This document shows positions 569-44,894 of a DNA stretch of 64,000 bases, in pieces. Under the pieces are notes generated by a model, which saw only the letters and a program-made list of their open reading frames with translations, made no database searches and was not told where the DNA came from. The stretch covers positions 124,001 to 188,000 of the forward strand of contig JAJLTO010000008.1 of NCBI GenBank assembly GCA_030568195.1, read 5' to 3'. Source of the DNA: Dipodascopsis uninucleata var. uninucleata (lineage: Eukaryota > Ascomycota > Lipomycetes > Lipomycetales > Lipomycetaceae). The translations under genes and the position numbers were made by a program. Position 1 is the first letter of the stretch. Each line of letters begins with the position of its first letter.

Positions 569-1266
569 TTTAATCTATTTTGTACAGTACATCACCAATC
601 CTAGTGGGAGCTGAATTTTAATGCGAGGTGAATAAAATGTATAGACAATCTCGACGCAAATTTTTTAAACGGTTAGAATTTTTTTTATCCCACCAAGCCG
701 CATGCAAACCCTAATAAGCATATCATTTAATTCCATGTAATATTCTATAAGCGCACTCTAGAACGTAAACGCAGAAAGCACTCTGTCCAGATTATTTCAA
801 ACTCTTCGGGTTTGTCTCTTTTAAATATTAGCGGGAGATATTTAAGGAGACAGGACAATTCATTAGCTATATACTTTATAGGTACTATAATATTTCTTGA
901 TAAATTTCTTGAAAATCTAGTAGTAATACAAAGTTAGGTTTTCGAGAAACTTAGAACGAGATCTCTAAGCTTCAATCGCATACGATCAGATAATAGAAGA
1001 CCTTTAGCTTTGAACACAAGTAGAATACTAGAGCGACAAACCAAATCTCGAGCAAGGTAAGAAGCGAGTAGCTGGGTGCAAGTATGTTAATATGTAACTG
1101 ACTGTACCCGAGCAGTAGCTGCTGACTGTGAATTTCACGTCTGTATTTATCTAGAAGTGCCAATCGACAGACCTGAATGGCATAAACAGAATCTTCTAAA
1201 GAATCTCGAGCGATAGACGAAGCAGTTTGAGGTGGTTGAAAGGTGTTATTCATTTTGACTCGCAGT
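569..1266. other. Intergenic region, UTP17 / Zn-cluster gene (divergent promoters)
   Basis: This AT-rich interval separates two divergently transcribed genes. An AAATTTTTT tract at 658-666 resembles the RRPE element common before ribosome-biogenesis genes, but no PAC element (GATGAG) stands beside it, so regulation through it is only suggested. A short minus-strand reading frame at 972-1253 is listed separately. Nothing else is recognisable. Confidence 0.5.
972..1253 (-). CDS. Possible small hypothetical protein, divergent from the Zn-cluster gene
   Basis: This reading frame begins at an ATG at 1253 and codes for about 93 residues. The N-terminal half is polar and helix-like (QPPQTASSIARDSLEDSVY, then a Leu/Arg-rich segment); the C-terminal half is hydrophobic and could be a single membrane span. 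A potential 36-nt intron (GGTACAG donor, CACCCAG acceptor) would replace the hydrophobic tail with a short Arg-rich end. I do not recognise the family. It begins only 14 bases from the first ATG of the opposite-strand transcription factor, so the two 5' ends would overlap, which argues for caution. It could be a chance frame. Confidence 0.2.
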   Translation of the reverse strand: MNNTFQPPQTASSIARDSLEDSVYAIQVCRLALLDKYRREIHSQQLLLGYSQLHINILAPSYSLLTLLEIWFVALVFYLCSKLKVFYYLIVCD

Positions 1267-4209
1267 ATGAAATCTCCTATACCGGAATCTCTGAATGGAG
1301 TAGGATCTGGTACGGGTGTAATGGGAGCTCATCGGTTGGTGGGTCAAGCAGATCTATCACTTCCTCCAATAAATGCTCCTCGTGTTCTAAACGGATTTAC
1401 AGGCCCGTACGGTTATCCCGCGCCAGTGGCCTATGATTATGGCGGTAGCCATATGGGAAGCATGACTAATCGAGGTATTCCTGAGCGAGCATATCCACTC
1501 TTGATAACGGAAGAAAGGCGTCCTGTTCGAAAGCGCAGAAGGATTCCAGTGTCATGTTTAGTTTGCAGGCAACGTAAGCTGAAGTGCGATAAGAGAAGTC
1601 CCTGCTCTGCATGTGTAACTCATGGCACTGTTCCTATGTGTACATATGCGCAGCGATCTTGGGTGGATATGCAAGATAGTACCTCGCAAAGTGCTCAAGC
1701 AAATGATGACGCTGATGAGCATAGCTCTGATGGAGCTTTCTCAAAAGCCCCAGAAACAGATCGCGTCATAATCAGACAATTTGATACCAATACTCGCAGT
1801 TTGTCTGATAGTGATCGTTCAAACGACACTATACGAGAACTCAAGGAACAGATGACTAGAATGGAAGCGATATTGAATAAGTTGGCTAACAGCAGATCAC
1901 AACAGGATAGCGAGAGACATGAGATACATTCCGTGAAATTAAATACCTCTAAAGCATCGACTTCAAACTATTTGTCTTCTCAGACGGTTCTACCTGCAGA
2001 TCCAATGGATACGATGACCTTAAGACCAGAACTGAGCTTGAAAAAGAGTCGAATGACATTCTTTGGTCCCCTGTCAAGTATAGCAGCAATATCTGAGGAT
2101 GGGTATATTCGCAAGTGTCTTGGTCAGGTTCATCAAGCTAAAAAGGTTTTGGCCAGACGTACTGATAGTGAAAGAGCAAGGGGCGGGTTAGTCAGTGCTG
2201 CTGCCGCCCTTAAAACACGCTCATCTCATGATGTGATGCCTCCTTCGCGGATTCCGAATGTCAGTGATGAGACTATGAAACTGATGAAGGTTATGTTTGA
2301 TCCTACTACGGACCCTGCTATGCAGTTTCCTCGTTTAGAGCATAAGCCTGTTTGTGATTTCCTCATTGATCGTTACATGAAAACGATTAATTTAATTTTT
2401 CCTATTGTGGATCCGTCTGTCTTCAGATGCGATATGACAAAGTTCTGGAATACCAAGAGAGAAGCAACTAATAATCCTAATCGACAAGTAAACACCGAAG
2501 ATAGAGATGATAAGTTTTCTCTAGCCGCCCATAAGGCAACGCTTCGTGGAACTGCACTTTTTGTAGTATTGCTGCGCATGGGCAGATTGTCTTTACTTCA
2601 CGAATGGAAACCATCAGACTCTGGTTTCGATGACAAGTATGCAGCCTTTTTTGGGCCCAGACTTCATGCTTATGCTTGGTCTTGTCTTCGAGAATCGAAC
2701 TATCTAGCTAAGGCAAATCTTGTGGTAGTCCAAGTTCTGGTTGGCTTGCGTATAAGTCAACTGATATCACGAGAGGATGGTGACGGAACTGATTCTTCGG
2801 ATTCAGCTCCCTTAGTAGGCATGATATCACAGATTGCTATAACCTTGGGACTTCATCGAGATCCTTCGATTTTTCCACAGGTCCCTTCTAGTATGGCTGA
2901 TGCATGGAGAAAGCTCTGGTCACAAATCGTGATCCTTGACACGTATAGATCACTGGAGTTAGCACTTCCTTTCAGTATTCCTCTCGAGATGACTGATACA
3001 GTATTAGATAGCTCGTATTCATTTTCAGACGATGTCGCACAACACGAGCAACCGTCTCAGCAATTCCATTCAGCTCATATTAAATGGGCAATGCTTGCGA
3101 GATCTGTACTTTCTCGAATAATGAGACCAAATTATGCTCTCGAACGGAGCGAATTACTCCAGCTTATAGATCAATTAGAGCAATTTGAGGAGCATCATTT
3201 AGGATCCTTTCAGTCTCTAATATCAGTCATTAAAGTTGATGAACAAATTTCAAGTCCACAGGATGCTTATGATTTGATACAAAAATACATGCTACAACTT
3301 CTCGTTCAACGTTTACAGCTGCAGCTCCTCCGATCTTATAGTCCTGCTACTCCCGCGGACGCAGAGTTGTTTCGACGAGATCGATTGCGATGTGCATTAA
3401 AGATGTTGGACACTATATCTACGTGTATGGAGCATTTGAAGTTGTTTTCAGATTTTGAGTGGATTTTAAGACCGTTTGCCATCCACCATTATTTATATCC
3501 CCTGTCTTTAGTTTTAAATGGCCTCATTCGCGAATACTATGAAAATCCGAAAATCATAATACCGAATTTTCCTTTGCACGCTCCCCTAGGCCAATCTAGC
3601 GACGCTATGGATGAGGATGACAGATGGTTGTATCCTGATCTTTCATTCAGCTATGATGATGATGGGGTAAGGAACCTTCATCGTCTCTATCAAGCCTTTG
3701 TCAAAACCAAAAAATGGATTATCACGTTGTCTAACACGTACTATTCTGGATCTAAAGACACCTCTACAATGAAGGTTTTTTCGGGCTATCTGAAGCATGA
3801 GATTTGTAATGCAAAGACTGCATCTCCTCGAGAGGGAGACTCCGGTAATATCTCAAGCGTGTCTTCTGTCATTGCTTCGTCGCCTGCTTCAGCATCAATT
3901 CAGACGCCTGCTTCTTCGTCTTCTGACATTGTCTCTGTTTTAAATCCTGTATCTGTGCAGGAAAATAAGGGAAACAATCTAACTTTAGAGTTAATGCAGC
4001 GGAGAGCGGCTGGGTCTGCCTACATTCCTTCAGAGGAGTTAGATATTGCGTCTAATGCTACTACTTCCAATTCAGAAAGTATTTATGAAGCTATCGATTG
4101 GGCAAACCCGCTCGATGTTCTTGTAACTGAAGACCTAGTAGGCGAATCATGGCATGATTGGTCTTTTTCACTGCAGGACGACATTGATTTTGAGGATTCA
4201 TCATTTTAA
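1267..4209 (+). CDS. Zn2Cys6 fungal-type transcription factor
   Basis: A nuclear regulator of about 980 residues. The binuclear zinc cluster has all six cysteines (C97, C100, C107, C113, C116, C125; spacing x2-x6-x5-x2-x8), preceded by a basic KRRR stretch, and binds DNA in the manner of Gal4. A short heptad-like segment (IRELKEQMTRMEAILNKLA) about 90 residues later is the likely dimerisation coiled coil. The centre (about residues 360-620) has the features of the fungal-specific transcription factor domain, including FPIVDPSVF and ITLGLHRDPSIFP. The C terminus is Ser/Ala-rich and then acidic (DIDFEDSSF at the very end), a plausible activation region. The frame is open upstream to a GTG at 1243, but the first ATG is at 1267. 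No introns are needed. The target genes cannot be inferred; the amidase gene next to it is one candidate by position only. Confidence 0.9.
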   Translation: MKSPIPESLNGVGSGTGVMGAHRLVGQADLSLPPINAPRVLNGFTGPYGYPAPVAYDYGGSHMGSMTNRGIPERAYPLLITEERRPVRKRRRIPVSCLVCRQRKLKCDKRSPCSACVTHGTVPMCTYAQRSWVDMQDSTSQSAQANDDADEHSSDGAFSKAPETDRVIIRQFDTNTRSLSDSDRSNDTIRELKEQMTRMEAILNKLANSRSQQDSERHEIHSVKLNTSKASTSNYLSSQTVLPADPMDTMTLRPELSLKKSRMTFFGPLSSIAAISEDGYIRKCLGQVHQAKKVLARRTDSERARGGLVSAAAALKTRSSHDVMPPSRIPNVSDETMKLMKVMFDPTTDPAMQFPRLEHKPVCDFLIDRYMKTINLIFPIVDPSVFRCDMTKFWNTKREATNNPNRQVNTEDRDDKFSLAAHKATLRGTALFVVLLRMGRLSLLHEWKPSDSGFDDKYAAFFGPRLHAYAWSCLRESNYLAKANLVVVQVLVGLRISQLISREDGDGTDSSDSAPLVGMISQIAITLGLHRDPSIFPQVPSSMADAWRKLWSQIVILDTYRSLELALPFSIPLEMTDTVLDSSYSFSDDVAQHEQPSQQFHSAHIKWAMLARSVLSRIMRPNYALERSELLQLIDQLEQFEEHHLGSFQSLISVIKVDEQISSPQDAYDLIQKYMLQLLVQRLQLQLLRSYSPATPADAELFRRDRLRCALKMLDTISTCMEHLKLFSDFEWILRPFAIHHYLYPLSLVLNGLIREYYENPKIIIPNFPLHAPLGQSSDAMDEDDRWLYPDLSFSYDDDGVRNLHRLYQAFVKTKKWIITLSNTYYSGSKDTSTMKVFSGYLKHEICNAKTASPREGDSGNISSVSSVIASSPASASIQTPASSSSDIVSVLNPVSVQENKGNNLTLELMQRRAAGSAYIPSEELDIASNATTSNSESIYEAIDWANPLDVLVTEDLVGESWHDWSFSLQDDIDFEDSSF

Positions 4210-10731: not shown

Positions 10732-12301
10732 TCACTCTTCTAATATATTGACATTCGTGAGTCCTTCTATTATTTCAAGCTTTGTCCAGCCCTCCACATC
10801 TCCATTTCTAGCATTCAAATACTTGCCATCAGATTTCCCATCTTTGACTTCTTGTATGAATTCAATAGCAGCATTGACATTTAATTCCATAACCCTCTTC
10901 TGACTCTCAAATGTGCACTCTTTGTTGTAAGCATATTTTGTGATAGCTGGAAAAAGCAGTGCAAAGTCGCTCTGAGAATGGTGTGCAGATGGCGAAGCCA
11001 AATAAATTTGTCTCTCTGGCCGAGTGCTTTTACTTGAAACACCGAATTCTGTCTTGGGGCTACAAGCATCTGTCATCATTTGGTTGACCAGCTTAAAGTT
11101 TGGGACCCATTTATAAAATGGATCTGAAAGCACAGCAATAGCTGGATAGGGTAATGGTACATCCATTCCCTGATATATGGGAATACACCAGGGATCTAAT
11201 AGTATCAATCCCCGTGCAGGATATGGTCTCGTAAATTCATCCCTTTCCAAGATGCTTTCGGGATCAACTGGCTCTTCAACATCAACCTCTAATCCAGTTT
11301 GATTTGATCCTTTCACATTCGACTCTATGTGTGCAAGGTCGTTAAAAGAGCCCTTTGTTAATGAAACCATTGTGGCAGCGCCGAAACTATGACCGGCGAG
11401 GTAAGCCTGTCCTTTAGCAGTGTTGACATAAGACCAGTCGAATTCCACATTCACACCAGAGCCCTCTTTCTGATGATGATTTTCCGGTCGTGCCACTAAA
11501 TTAGGCTTGGTCTCATCAATCACTCTTAAAATTGAAATAATTTCTCTAGTTCTTTGAGCAAGCTGGTTTGCTCTCAATTGTCGGGCATCCTCGCTGACAC
11601 CCATCACCCGCCTGAAGTTTACCTCGCCTTTTAGCCCGTGATACTCGCCATTTTCATCAATATCGCCCACATAAGAAACAGCTGCCGACATATCTCTATG
11701 CTCAGGTACTATTACCACATTTCCATATGATGCAACAGATCCACAGAATTGTGAGTAAGCGTTACGCGTTCCTCCAAGTCCGTGAGAAAACACGACCAAC
11801 GGCCATTTCTGACCACCTGGTGGTGGCAGTAGAGGAGCATTCGAGAGGCATGGTAACTTAGCTCTAGTTACAAAAGGCATGTTACACGCTACTCCTGCAA
11901 CTCTTTTTGACATACCCAGAAAAAGAAGTAGATCTGCAATATCTGTTAGTAATTTTATGTCGCGAGACAGAAACCAGTTCAGCAGTCATGTCAAGAAAGA
12001 ACGCTTAGGGGTAGGATCTCGCTCTAGTTGGTAGACTGCGATTTCAAATTAGAGCCATTAGTAACTCACTCTTCAAATACTCTTTTCCATTTTCTGTAAA
12101 CCAATATGGCTGAGGATATGATTTCACTGTATTAGGTGCATCGTCATGTATATCTGCAGGATAAAATATTCGAAAAAGTAGAGTATCTATTGAAGTTCCA
12201 ATCGCTGCATATGTTTTTGGCCACGGTGAACGAATCTCAATCTCAACCGAACCTACAGTGTAGGGTCCTGTGTACTTGGGCAAACACGTAGTGAAGAACA
12301 T
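10732..12301 (-). CDS. Platelet-activating-factor acetylhydrolase-like phospholipase (PAF-AH, p/isoform II)
   Basis: A serine esterase of 477 residues from the fungal branch of the plasma PAF-acetylhydrolase/phospholipase A2 group VII family, expected to remove short or oxidised sn-2 acyl chains from phospholipids. Exon 1 (12070..12301) carries the N-terminal strand region YTVGSVEIEIRSPWP and FRIFYPADI. A 136-nt intron (GTGAGT donor, TACTAAC branch, ATTGCAG acceptor) joins it in frame to exon 2 (10732..11933), giving KEYLKNLLLFLGMS. Catalytic parts visible: oxyanion region VVFSHGLGGTRN, nucleophile in AGHSFGAAT, Asp in ILLDPWCIPI, and a His candidate in SAHHSQSDF. It ends convergently about 190 bp from the Ctr gene. 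There is no signal peptide in the model. A short 5' uORF beginning MLSFGSNW precedes it on the same strand. Confidence 0.87.
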
Positions 12302-33436: not shown

Positions 33437-34716
33437 CTGATCTTGATCTTACGTATCAATACAACGCACCCCGAAGTTTTAAGTGTACTGAAAATATAAA
33501 ATATAAAGAGAAAGAGTCGACGGACGACTACTTCTATATCACAATATCGCAGAAAACGTTAAAAGTGTCCCTCAAGGTCGCCTGCGTACTTCAGACGAGC
33601 TTGGAAACCACAAACCCGTATTCTCCATGTTGTAGCTATACAACAACCGGGTAACAGAGAGAGCGCCGGGTAATCTAGGAACAGGACCCTGCCCTTGCCA
33701 CTGCTAAATCTACGATAATACACCTAACCCGTATATGCATTATAGCGGACAATATATGTATGAGTAATTGCTTATATAAGTTTTGTAAAGATATTACTGT
33801 TTCAACCTCACGTGTAGCAGCCAGCTGTGCATCTCTCCTCTAAGCTGTAGTCATCTTTTACTGCCATATATATAATCCATTACATAGCTTGCCAAGTATA
33901 TCAAAAACATTACAGCTACTGTCCGCTTATTACCAAGCAATTCTCTTATTTACTATTTCCACATATATTACATTCTTATTACCCTATTACTTTATCAGCC
34001 GCTACTCTTCCATTACTAGTCTAATAGCTGACGACGCCTAAATCGCTGGTGACGCAGTTGGCACGCTGTAGCTACGCTGTGTCCAATATATATAACAGAC
34101 TGTTATTGGTCACAGAACAGCAAATTAAGCAGGAATTACGTACTGCGTTTATGCGACAGCTTTTTTCTGCTAGTCCATAGTTTACTGAATAGCAAGAGAT
34201 ATTCTGGAAGTACTGATTATAGGGTCAAGCCCACACGTCACGTACACAGCCCTGAAATTGCGCCGCGTCCAGGACGGCGTAGTTCGCGCTCTGTACTATC
34301 CCCGTGCACTGCCTCTCAGCGCTACTTGGACTTGATGTAACCGTAGTCGTGTACAAGACTGTTTAATAAAAGTACGAAGAGATTTGCAGACTTCATTGCG
34401 CTTCTTCCCTTCTATTTTTATCCAGATGGCTGTGATTCGATCTACACTGTGTTGCCTGTTTCTTGTCCCTGCAGCGCCAGTAAGCCAAGCGTGTTTCTGA
34501 TTTGACATACCATATACTTTTAACTTTTACTGTTATTTATATCTTTTTATTATAGTGATAATAACTCATCCGCGAACGTACCTGCATTGAGCAACATAAA
34601 TATCGACGCTCCTCCCTAGTAAATATTTCAGTGCTCCCATTACAACTACACTCTTCTGATCCTTTTATATATTATTACTGTATAATAATTACTGTATAAC
34701 CGTCACTGCATAAATA
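33437..34716. other. Gene-free region HRT1 / CFEM protein
   Basis: A 1.3-kb divergent promoter interval. Short frames (for example 34296-34508 on the minus strand) show no recognisable protein. A stretch at about 34230-34330 is more GC-rich than its surroundings; no tRNA or snRNA fold was recognised in it. Confidence 0.45.
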
Positions 34717-35274
34717 ATGAAGTTCCACGTCATCTCTGCTCTCCTCGTTGCCGTTGCTCCGCTGGCTGCCGCCTTGGACCTGTCAGACGTCCCATCGTGC
34801 GTACAGTCTTGCCTGACTACTGTTGCGCTCTCGAGCTCCTGCGACACTCTCGATCTCTCGTGCTACTGCACGTCAAGCTCGTTCATTGACAGCCTTGCTT
34901 CTTGTGTCGACAGTTCGTGCTCTTCTGAGTCTGATAGGGCTTCTGCAGCCAGCCTTGCGCAGAGCGAGTGTGCTTCCGCGGCTAGTGTTACTTTAGCGAG
35001 TCTCTCGGAGCTACTTTCTCTCACCGGCGCTGCATCTGCCGCAACTATTGCATCCGTTTCCGTTACCTCTGATTCATTAAGCGCTTCTGGTACAGGAAGT
35101 TCTACTTCTACTTTCGTCACGTCGACTGCCACAAGCAGCAACAGCAGCTTCACTTCCAGTAGCGTGCAGGCCTCATCAGTTGCTACAGAGTCTTCTTCCG
35201 CAGCGTCAATCACGTCTTTCTATGGTATGTCGGCTGGTCTGGCGATTGCGGGACTCTTCATTACTATGTTCTAG
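34717..35274 (+). CDS. CFEM-domain GPI-anchored cell-surface protein
   Basis: A secreted protein of 185 residues. A signal peptide (about residues 1-19) precedes a CFEM domain with eight cysteines at 28, 32, 42, 49, 51, 63, 68 and 85, matching the family spacing (x3, x9, x6, x1, x11, x4, x16). Asp46, three residues before the CxC, sits where the axial haem-iron ligand lies in Candida Csa2 and relatives, so haem capture is plausible. A Ser/Thr-rich stalk (about 90-160), expected to be O-mannosylated, leads to a hydrophobic C terminus (SFYGMSAGLAIAGLFITMF) typical of a GPI-attachment signal. The coding sequence is richer in G and C, with more C-ending codons, than its neighbours, which may reflect high expression. 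No partner genes for haem uptake are seen nearby. Confidence 0.9.
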   Translation: MKFHVISALLVAVAPLAAALDLSDVPSCVQSCLTTVALSSSCDTLDLSCYCTSSSFIDSLASCVDSSCSSESDRASAASLAQSECASAASVTLASLSELLSLTGAASAATIASVSVTSDSLSASGTGSSTSTFVTSTATSSNSSFTSSSVQASSVATESSSAASITSFYGMSAGLAIAGLFITMF

Positions 35275-41153: not shown

Positions 41154-42904
41154 TTAATCATCTTCCGAGAAATCTTCATCTTCGTCTTCATCACCACCAG
41201 ATGCACTAGCATCGTCATCATCAAACTCAGACTCTTCTTCAGACTCATCTTCCGGGTCAGCATCTGACACTTCGAATTCTGATGCATCATCTGACATGTC
41301 ACTGTTCTCAGAGTCAGATTCAGTATCTAAGAAGCTCCATCCGCCGCCTTCGAAAAAAGCGTGAGGGTCAGCAACGATGGTTTTGATAATAGTTTGCCAA
41401 TTCAAATTAAGGGGACCCTCAGAGTATGGAATTTCCACCTCATCTAGCCAATCTTTGACATTATCCAGCTGGTCCATGGGGATTGAATTGATGTGGATAA
41501 CGGGCCGACTGAAGTCTTTGAATACGAATACAAGATCGAAGTTCTTTAATCCAAACTGCACGCGTTCCAGGTGAGCAATCTCGATCTCTGAAAGAGTTAC
41601 GACGAGGAATGGAGGGTCTATAAGCTGCACTAAACAATCTGTTGTAGGCTGGCAAAGCACATTTGCCCTAAATGGCACACCACTGAAACCAAGCTCACGG
41701 AACGGAATATCAACATCGAAGCTGTTGGAAGCCTCAGCTATCTTTTCGCTAAAGCTTCTAAACTCCTTGTTAAGAGCAGCACGTCGTCGACGTTCCTCCT
41801 GCTCAGCCTCCAATTCATCTTCATCACCATATCTGTACTTTCGCTTGCGATTTCCGGTTTCATCAAACTGGATATCGCTAGCTTCTCGATAAAATTGGAC
41901 ATCCTTAGTCTTTCTCTTTCCAATCATGATTGGGTTTTTAAGGTGTACATGAATGATCACAATCAGTTCATGATCACATGGCTGAAAGAATAGATGCTTT
42001 ATATTGCTAAATAAAAGATCAATGCGATGATCGCTTCTAACTGGACTCTGGTATCGAAGACCATTCTGATGAATTTCGAGTGCACCTGCAACGCGTTTTC
42101 CATCAGGAGCTGGTCGTACAAATACATTGTCCAGTCTAATCGGTCTTCTATTTCTGACCTCTATGAGATTATTCTGTTCCACGACATCTTCAAGCTCCTT
42201 TCGCTCCATCTCCTTTTTCACAGCACTCTTTTTCATCTCCTGGATGCTCTTAAAAATATCTGTTATTCTCTCTGTATCTCGACTTCGGTAAGTCAAACTG
42301 TGCACGAAGTTTGCATTAGCGTCATCAAATGGCGAATCATCTTTCTTGGATATGCTTTGTGCTGGTGTCAAAAAATTCAATCTTATATAGACATACTCGC
42401 CCTCGTCGTTCTTACTCGCATTCTTGAGAGTAGAGATATGGAATGGTACTGGCCGACCGCAGATTGGAACTACGACGACTTGATTCTTCGGATCAACTGC
42501 AATCTTTAAATCCTTGACACCAACTGGAAACTGGGATTCTCGTTTATAAGCTTCGAATCTGCGAAATGTTTCTCGCTTTTGATCTTCACTTGTTTTGACA
42601 TCGCCCGCGAAACGCTGCAATCCTTGTTCTTGCAATTTCTTGTGCAACTCCTTTTGGTGCTCCTTACGCTTAAGTTCCGCACCCTCATTCACCTAAATAC
42701 GCGTAATATTAGTAAACTATGTAAATGTTATGAGTTTAAATGTAATATCTGTCAATGGATTTATATACAGTCTCATTCGTCTTAAGAGTAATGAGCTCCT
42801 TATCATTTCCATCTCTTCTCATCTATTCAAATGCCATCACTATTAAAATATCTTACCGTTTTAGTTTCATTACGTAGTTTGCTCTTAAATGTTCTGTCTG
42901 CCAT
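41154..42904 (-). CDS. SPT16: FACT complex subunit Spt16 lacking the N-terminal domain
   Basis: The large FACT subunit, a histone chaperone for H2A-H2B and H3-H4 in transcription and replication. Exon 1 (42857..42904) encodes [16 protein letters not shown]; a 164-nt intron (GTAAGA donor, TTACTAAT branch, ATTTAG acceptor) leads to exon 2 (41154..42692), giving 528 residues. The junction [20 protein letters not shown] matches the linker just before the dimerisation domain of other Spt16. All later parts are present: dimerisation region, double-PH middle domain ([16 protein letters not shown]-type end [12 protein letters not shown]) and an acidic tail. The first about 440 residues, the pita-bread aminopeptidase-like domain, are absent: only 799 bp separate the start from the YPT31 ATG, and no such domain is encoded there. 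S. cerevisiae survives without this domain, so loss is credible. Family lengths are normally over 1000 residues. Confidence 0.9.
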
Positions 42905-43703
42905 TATTGATCAGCTACAATTGTATTAGCTCTTCGCGTTGTACCGAATTTTTTTCTAAATCGCTAATTGATATATTTTCTATTATCTGTCTTATTACCA
43001 AGTAAATTACTGAACTGGGTGGTTTGGGAAATCACGCGTATATTCCGTATGTGCAAAATGCCACAACATATATTCCGTAATGAAGTATATTTAATATGCG
43101 TTTACGAAAGGGAACTACTGCTAAGGTAGAAGACAAATTTACAGATATTTATTGAGATATGATCGAGAAGAGATGCTTTATAAAGGCTTGCTGGTTGATC
43201 TCATATGTTGCTTTTGCTGCCGATTAGTATACAGCACTTCCTGCAGATTGCTATTGCCTGAGCTGCTTCTTTGATATAAACATTGGACTGGCTGTACAAA
43301 TTTGCAAACAGGCAGCCACAAAGCAGCTTCGGCATCCATAGGTTATAACATGTGACAGAAATGCCATATCTGAAACAACCATCATACAAACACTGATTCA
43401 AAACGCTATTACATGTCAAATTTAAACCACAAATGCAGCAATATATAACAACGCCAATACGACCGGTGTCCCACAAAGCACCCACCCACCCCCTTTGACC
43501 CTTCTCAACTATAACAAGTTCAATTCTCTACCAAGTTTCGTTTCTTGAAAGAAATCCCCATCAAGTAGAAAGGATATTAGCAATAGAGATTTGCATCTAT
43601 AGGCTTCTGCGTTAAGTTATAAGTGTCGATAGATTCGAGATCGAAGTTCCCGATTTGCAGTTTGCTATTTTTTGTTTTAAATAATTGATTACAACAGTTC
43701 AAC
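42905..43703. other. Divergent promoter region SPT16 / YPT31
   Basis: 799 bp between divergent starts. A 94-codon minus-strand frame (43201-43485), Cys-rich and starting at GTG, is not similar to Spt16 or to anything I know. An acceptor-like TTGTAG at about 42920 could belong to a 5'-UTR intron of SPT16. Confidence 0.55.

Positions 43704-44894
<1,191 letters not shown>

Follow-up and report, generated by a model that had tools for sequence, protein, structure and literature searches.

Genes at the locus

The window, by which we mean the whole stretch of DNA that was analysed (64000 bases, with no N), carries on its minus strand a two-exon gene for Spt16 (Cdc68/SUPT16H), the large subunit of FACT. 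Exon 1 (42904-42857, 48 nt) encodes the linker just N-terminal to the dimerisation domain and was placed using a splice test, alignment and the context of its ATG. It is followed by an intron of 164 nt (42856-42693, GTAAGA...CTAAT...TTTAG) and by exon 2 (42692-41154), which, according to Pfam and phmmer, encodes the dimerisation domain, a middle domain made up of PH_SPT16 and Rttp106-like parts, an acidic C-terminal tail and the stop codon. The open frame of exon 2 (41154-42692, minus strand) comprises 512 residues, in which three Spt16 domains exceed the Pfam cut-offs, and the spliced product is 528 residues long with zero internal stops. The initial annotation described a gene of 528 residues starting in the linker before the dimerisation domain, which both the splicing and the phmmer alignment bore out. 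Its interval of 41154-43703 does include the SPT16 gene but also takes in the intergenic gap; the coding region proper is 41154-42904.

The dimerisation domain (PF08644, SPT16) was matched at 138.5 bits against a cut-off of 25, over profile positions 1-112 of 112. Both parts of the middle domain were likewise present, PF24824 (PH_SPT16) at 177.4 bits over positions 1-129 of 129 and PF08512 (Rttp106-like) at 87.8 bits over positions 2-90 of 91. Using phmmer against solved chains, residues 4-525 were aligned with residues 474-1007 of the Komagataella Spt16 chain 7xt7_j (E = 8.2e-218), while residues 57-180 corresponded to the solved dimerisation domain 4khb_A and residues 182-476 to the solved middle domain 4kho_A. 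Because the alignment begins at residue 474 of 7xt7_j, about 470 front residues are absent, which upholds the earlier claim of a missing front, put at about 440 residues. The last piece of the linker and all downstream parts are present, and everything that precedes them in other Spt16 proteins is missing. In known Spt16 proteins, the parts retained here bind Pob3 and deal with H3-H4 and H2A-H2B. Pfam scans of window ORFs found no domain of Pob3 itself (Pob3/SSRP1, the heterodimer partner).

The tail contains 29 aspartate or glutamate residues among the final 52, and its string SEFEVSD lines up with yeast SEYEASE. By composition it is an acidic tail, for which histone binding is predicted. The end of the protein (41154-41300, minus strand) does not contain the DWDELE...ADR motif that human and S. 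cerevisiae Spt16 share, a motif that we did not treat as defining. An uninterrupted DWDE codon string was found on neither strand of the window in a search that an intron-split copy would escape. When the Komagataella chain is aligned with human, its match stops at residue 1005 of 1008, at the edge of this motif, and the absence may reflect fungal variation or, for the deposited Komagataella chain, an effect of the construct.

Upstream of SPT16 and divergent from it lies YPT31/RAB11 (43704-44894, plus strand), with exons at 43704-43737, 44209-44598 and 44680-44894 that together encode 212 residues with no internal stop. Its first intron is 471 nt long (43738-44208) and is preceded by an exon of 34 nt; the internal intron is at 44599-44679. 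Elsewhere in the window are a zinc-cluster transcription factor (1240-4209), a CFEM-domain protein (34714-35274, plus strand) and a PAF-acetylhydrolase-like ORF (10732-11985, minus strand), whose Pfam match starts at position 80 of 372 and for which a 5' exon starting from 12301 is possible. A Fungal_trans domain was also found with Pfam. Together, the zinc-cluster, Fungal_trans and CFEM domains suggest fungal DNA, the zinc-cluster and CFEM proteins pointing probably to Ascomycota or Basidiomycota. The window contained no Rfam match at the gathering threshold, no tRNA and no repeats of at least 40 bases.

Search for the N-terminal domain

Spt16 structures solved from yeasts and human include an N-terminal aminopeptidase-like domain (the N-lobe). 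This domain is usual in Spt16; it is not treated as defining here because it is not needed for yeast viability. We searched the window for it with three Spt16 front sequences, using tblastn and, as a profile, hmmsearch --max on 3152 six-frame segments of at least 12 residues. The tblastn queries returned 28 rows at E ≤ 10. The two best of these (E = 7.7e-4 and 0.002) were the linker of SPT16 itself, and the remaining 26 across the 64-kb window had E values of at least 0.39. One of these rows, similar to residues 417-445 of the yeast protein, mapped to the plus strand at 43453-43539 (E = 0.69) and was attributed to chance. In the profile search of the 3152 segments, the SPT16 gene itself reached E = 0.019, and all others had E values of at least 1.8.

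Positive controls were run with a database size equal to that of the real search. Komagataella N-lobe pieces were detected in nine of nine cases (E ≤ 1.2e-15) with a profile built without Komagataella, and overlapping human front-half pieces of up to 100 residues were also detected in nine of nine (E ≤ 6.5e-4, with eight of the nine at E ≤ 8.4e-9); exons much shorter than these control pieces might be missed. The aminopeptidase-like domain was not detected in the 64-kb window by a profile search with positive human and Komagataella controls, in keeping with the initial annotation.

The divergent interval between SPT16 and YPT31 (42905-43703) is 799 bp long, and neither an N-lobe nor a convincing coding signal was found in it. 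The codon score was calibrated on a held-out SPT16 exon, which scored 28.6 bits per 100 codons. Within the gap, the best 120-base window (43440-43559, minus strand) scored 5.1 bits and contained a stop, as opposed to 10-16 bits for windows of the main YPT31 exon. A 94-residue ORF at 43201-43485 (minus strand) was rejected as an exon, having no Pfam match at E = 0.001 and a codon score of -13.2 per 100 codons. A best-segment scan picked out 75 nt at 43447-43521 (minus strand, 10.9 bits), overlapping the start of this ORF; the segment was dismissed as noise because many antisense stretches within known genes score equally high. Gap size, codon score and the N-lobe search with its positive controls agree with the initial annotation, which held that the 799 bp leading to the YPT31 ATG could not accommodate some 1300 bp of coding sequence and that the frames there were unrelated. 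Other divergent gaps, taken from the gene models of this analysis, measure 1102 bp (DPM-CTR) and 874 bp (C2-MUN). Being near these in size, the SPT16-YPT31 interval resembles an ordinary shared promoter region.

These searches bear directly on the idea that the N-lobe was overlooked within the window, either divided among small exons or nested on the far side of YPT31. Introns of 471 nt do occur here, judging from the YPT31 model, and exons far shorter than the controls could escape detection. However, neither strand of the 64 kb gave a signal with controls that worked at pieces of 100 residues or fewer, and the upstream gap is without convincing coding signal. We consider an overlooked N-lobe highly improbable.

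The 5' end of the gene

An in-frame TGA lies 9 nt upstream of the SPT16 ATG at 42904. The context score of this ATG was matched or beaten by 15 of 339 noncoding ATGs. Compared with 13 reference starts, several of which are our own gene models, three scored higher and ten lower. The 48-nt first exon is similar to modelled first exons of 34 nt in YPT31, 34 nt in CCDC90 and 60 nt in C2. A short first exon before an intron, as in YPT31, is seemingly common to several genes of the window.

A search for upstream exons carrying an ATG was carried out on 22 other ORFs; as these were chosen for being long and only 5' introns were considered, a bias in intron position is indicated rather than measured. 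Fourteen of the 22 ORFs yielded no model and eight yielded at least one (YPT31, CCDC90, histidine phosphatase (g28120), C2, UCH, PUF, PAF-AH and g25911). The model for g25911 was dropped because its first exon falls inside the CCDC90 gene, as was the longest UCH model, whose first exon falls inside ORF g40088. First exons in the retained models are 34-232 nt long. The long ORFs for the zinc-cluster factor, amidase, PUF, MTO1, MUN, SNF2 and PXA are single open frames; the DPM gene probably contains an internal intron. These models indicate that an SPT16 intron 48 nt past the ATG matches the local layout, whereas in a full-length gene, where it would sit near codon 490, the intron would be less in keeping with it. 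Taken at the level of sequence, the good ATG context, the upstream in-frame stop and the early first intron point to a genuine 5' end of SPT16. Counting against a short gene is the homology of exon 1, which is to a mid-protein linker and not to the start of any Spt16.

Two overlapping strings resembling a branch point and an acceptor lie at the edge of the truncation (42898-42930, minus strand). The first, CTAAT...TTGTAG, ends at 42915, 20 nt ahead of the first homologous SPT16 codon, and the second, CTGAT...GGCAG, ends at 42898, only 3 nt ahead of it. In noncoding stretches such combinations occur 2.2 times per kb per strand (39 in 17462 strand-bases), so that the odds of meeting one by coincidence no more than 30 nt from a chosen site are roughly 1 in 15. 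The strings could be fortuitous or a relic, or they could provide the acceptor for an intron in the 5' UTR or for an exon that is missing. Since in-frame reading from the first string runs into the TGA, that string would mark the end of a 5'-UTR intron. The second would act in mid-gene as the acceptor for an N-lobe-encoding exon, which is absent here.

A mid-gene acceptor is what would be expected if the real gene were full length, with its N-lobe exons elsewhere, and a faulty assembly join or a strain rearrangement had fallen in an intron upstream of 42898. The acceptor-like GGCAG|AC with its CTGAT branch, 3 nt ahead of the homology, is consistent with such a join, as is the start of SPT16 homology in the middle of the linker. 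Partial Pfam matches in other ORFs point the same way: PAF-AH from position 80 of 372, MUN over 146-282 of 473, adenosine deaminase over 1-195 of 330 (the better of two stretches) and Fungal_trans over 89-249 of 262. Other domains in the window are nevertheless near-complete, namely amidase (5-444 of 445), GIDA (1-390 of 391), UCH (1-254 of 254) and SNF2 (1-290 of 290), and the sequence contains neither an N nor a repeat of at least 40 bases. A misjoin would also require an exon of about 42 nt in mid-gene, with an intron on either side, whereas the long ORFs here are single open frames, and the good ATG context would have to be a coincidence. On this balance we regard a join or rearrangement as less likely than a genuinely short gene.

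Conservation and the case for a shortened Spt16

Over residues 1-476 of the window protein, identity to human Spt16 was 196/450; in the same comparison Komagataella reached 185/450 and S. cerevisiae 186/450. The same residues were identical to Komagataella at 307/472 positions and to S. cerevisiae at 266/472, and identity to the middle domain from Chaetomium was 204/295. For linker plus dimerisation domain alone, the window protein matched the two yeasts at 91/177 and 81/176 positions, fewer than the 110/178 at which the yeasts match each other; against human it did not fall behind, with 55/160 for the window protein and 48/159 and 52/159 for the two yeasts. By these identity counts, the retained part of SPT16 is no farther from human than are two full-length yeast proteins. 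An identity to human as high as that of full-length yeasts speaks against an old pseudogene, but makes a break or duplication of recent date no less likely. An Spt16 alignment search of bacterial/archaeal and viral contig collections for related loci found no encoded relative. The codon pattern for QFGLKNFD matched 19 bacterial/archaeal loci, all of which were examined by tblastn and gave no relative (best E = 0.097), and 0 viral contigs.

Conservation and intron content also bear on whether a full-length SPT16 lies elsewhere, with the window copy being a shorter paralogue of an interfering, specialised or recent kind. The intron is retained, so the copy is not a retrocopy. It also shows no faster change relative to human, which is a weak point because a recent duplicate would show none either. 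A partial duplicate seems to us quite doubtful.

We favour, at a probability of roughly 0.48, a two-exon gene with its ATG at 42904 that encodes a genuine shortened Spt16, consisting of dimerisation domain, middle domain and acidic tail, and that is the working Spt16 of the genome. This reading starts from the gene structure, the domain content, the lack of a detected N-lobe in 64 kb and the conservation; it supposes that the gene would be expressed, that its product would bind Pob3 and function, and that the genome would hold no full-length copy elsewhere. The initial annotation had proposed a natural loss of the domain or its splitting into another locus. A gene lacking the N-lobe is indeed favoured by the start context, the intron near the ATG, the divergent spacing and the conservation, but these features would look the same whether the domain was lost or split off, a full-length copy lies elsewhere, or the assembly was wrongly joined. 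Our ranking places loss or fission first, a wrong join second and an extra copy third.

As a component of FACT, the short Spt16 would pair with Pob3 via its dimerisation domain, while its middle domain and tail would hold H3-H4 and H2A-H2B, so that it could carry the core nucleosome-reorganising activity of FACT. Lacking the N-lobe, it would lack the anchor to MCM2-7 and other replisome parts known from budding yeast. In budding yeast, the transfer of parental histones is disrupted when the N-terminal domain is deleted, and the interaction of FACT with MCM2-7 requires this domain (PMC10681723). The same source attributes to earlier studies a tie between the domain and Tof1, and reports mass spectrometry that connects it with the polymerase-alpha complex (PMC10681723). 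Replication-coupled histone recycling would then depend on different contacts, or on an N-lobe encoded by a separate gene; the short Spt16 would keep core FACT activity and lose its replisome anchor unless that anchor is separately supplied. It is possible, and we put this forward more tentatively, that the only Spt16 of this genome has lost its N-terminal domain with the rest under undiminished selection, and that FACT at the fork makes do without contacts between Spt16-N and MCM2-7, Tof1 and polymerase alpha. If the lineage has dispensed with the domain, one could ask which fork contacts, histone residues and features of Mcm2, Tof1 and polymerase alpha have changed with it.

Among the titles and opening lines of abstracts that were listed, from a literature that includes few subscription journals, none described an Spt16 that naturally lacks the N-terminal domain, which is weak evidence of novelty. 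The Spt16 passages of an Encephalitozoon paper are silent on this domain (PMC10158259), and Spt16 is not among the ten factors covered by a broad 2026 survey of elongation factors (PMC13289920).

The window protein has in common with Spt16 (Cdc68/SUPT16H) the linker, the dimerisation domain, the PH-like and Rttp106-like middle domain and the acidic tail, and differs in being without the N-terminal aminopeptidase-like domain and without a detected C-terminal DWDELE...ADR motif. It also resembles laboratory deletions in S. cerevisiae, in which the same domain is missing and the cells are viable (PMC3362939, PMC7708052). The dispensability of the domain for viability, on which the initial annotation had relied, is confirmed (PMC3362939, PMC7708052), and the domain is described as deletable without severe effects, with a role that is non-essential and poorly understood (PMC7708052). 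Those deletions were engineered, whereas the absence in the window gene would be natural; were this the only copy in the genome, it would be nature's version of the domain deletion that yeast geneticists made in the laboratory. The ciliate Pob3 described in a Paramecium paper, without its N-terminal dimerisation domain, concerns the other subunit and another domain, but is likewise a case of a FACT domain missing in nature (PMC7402521).
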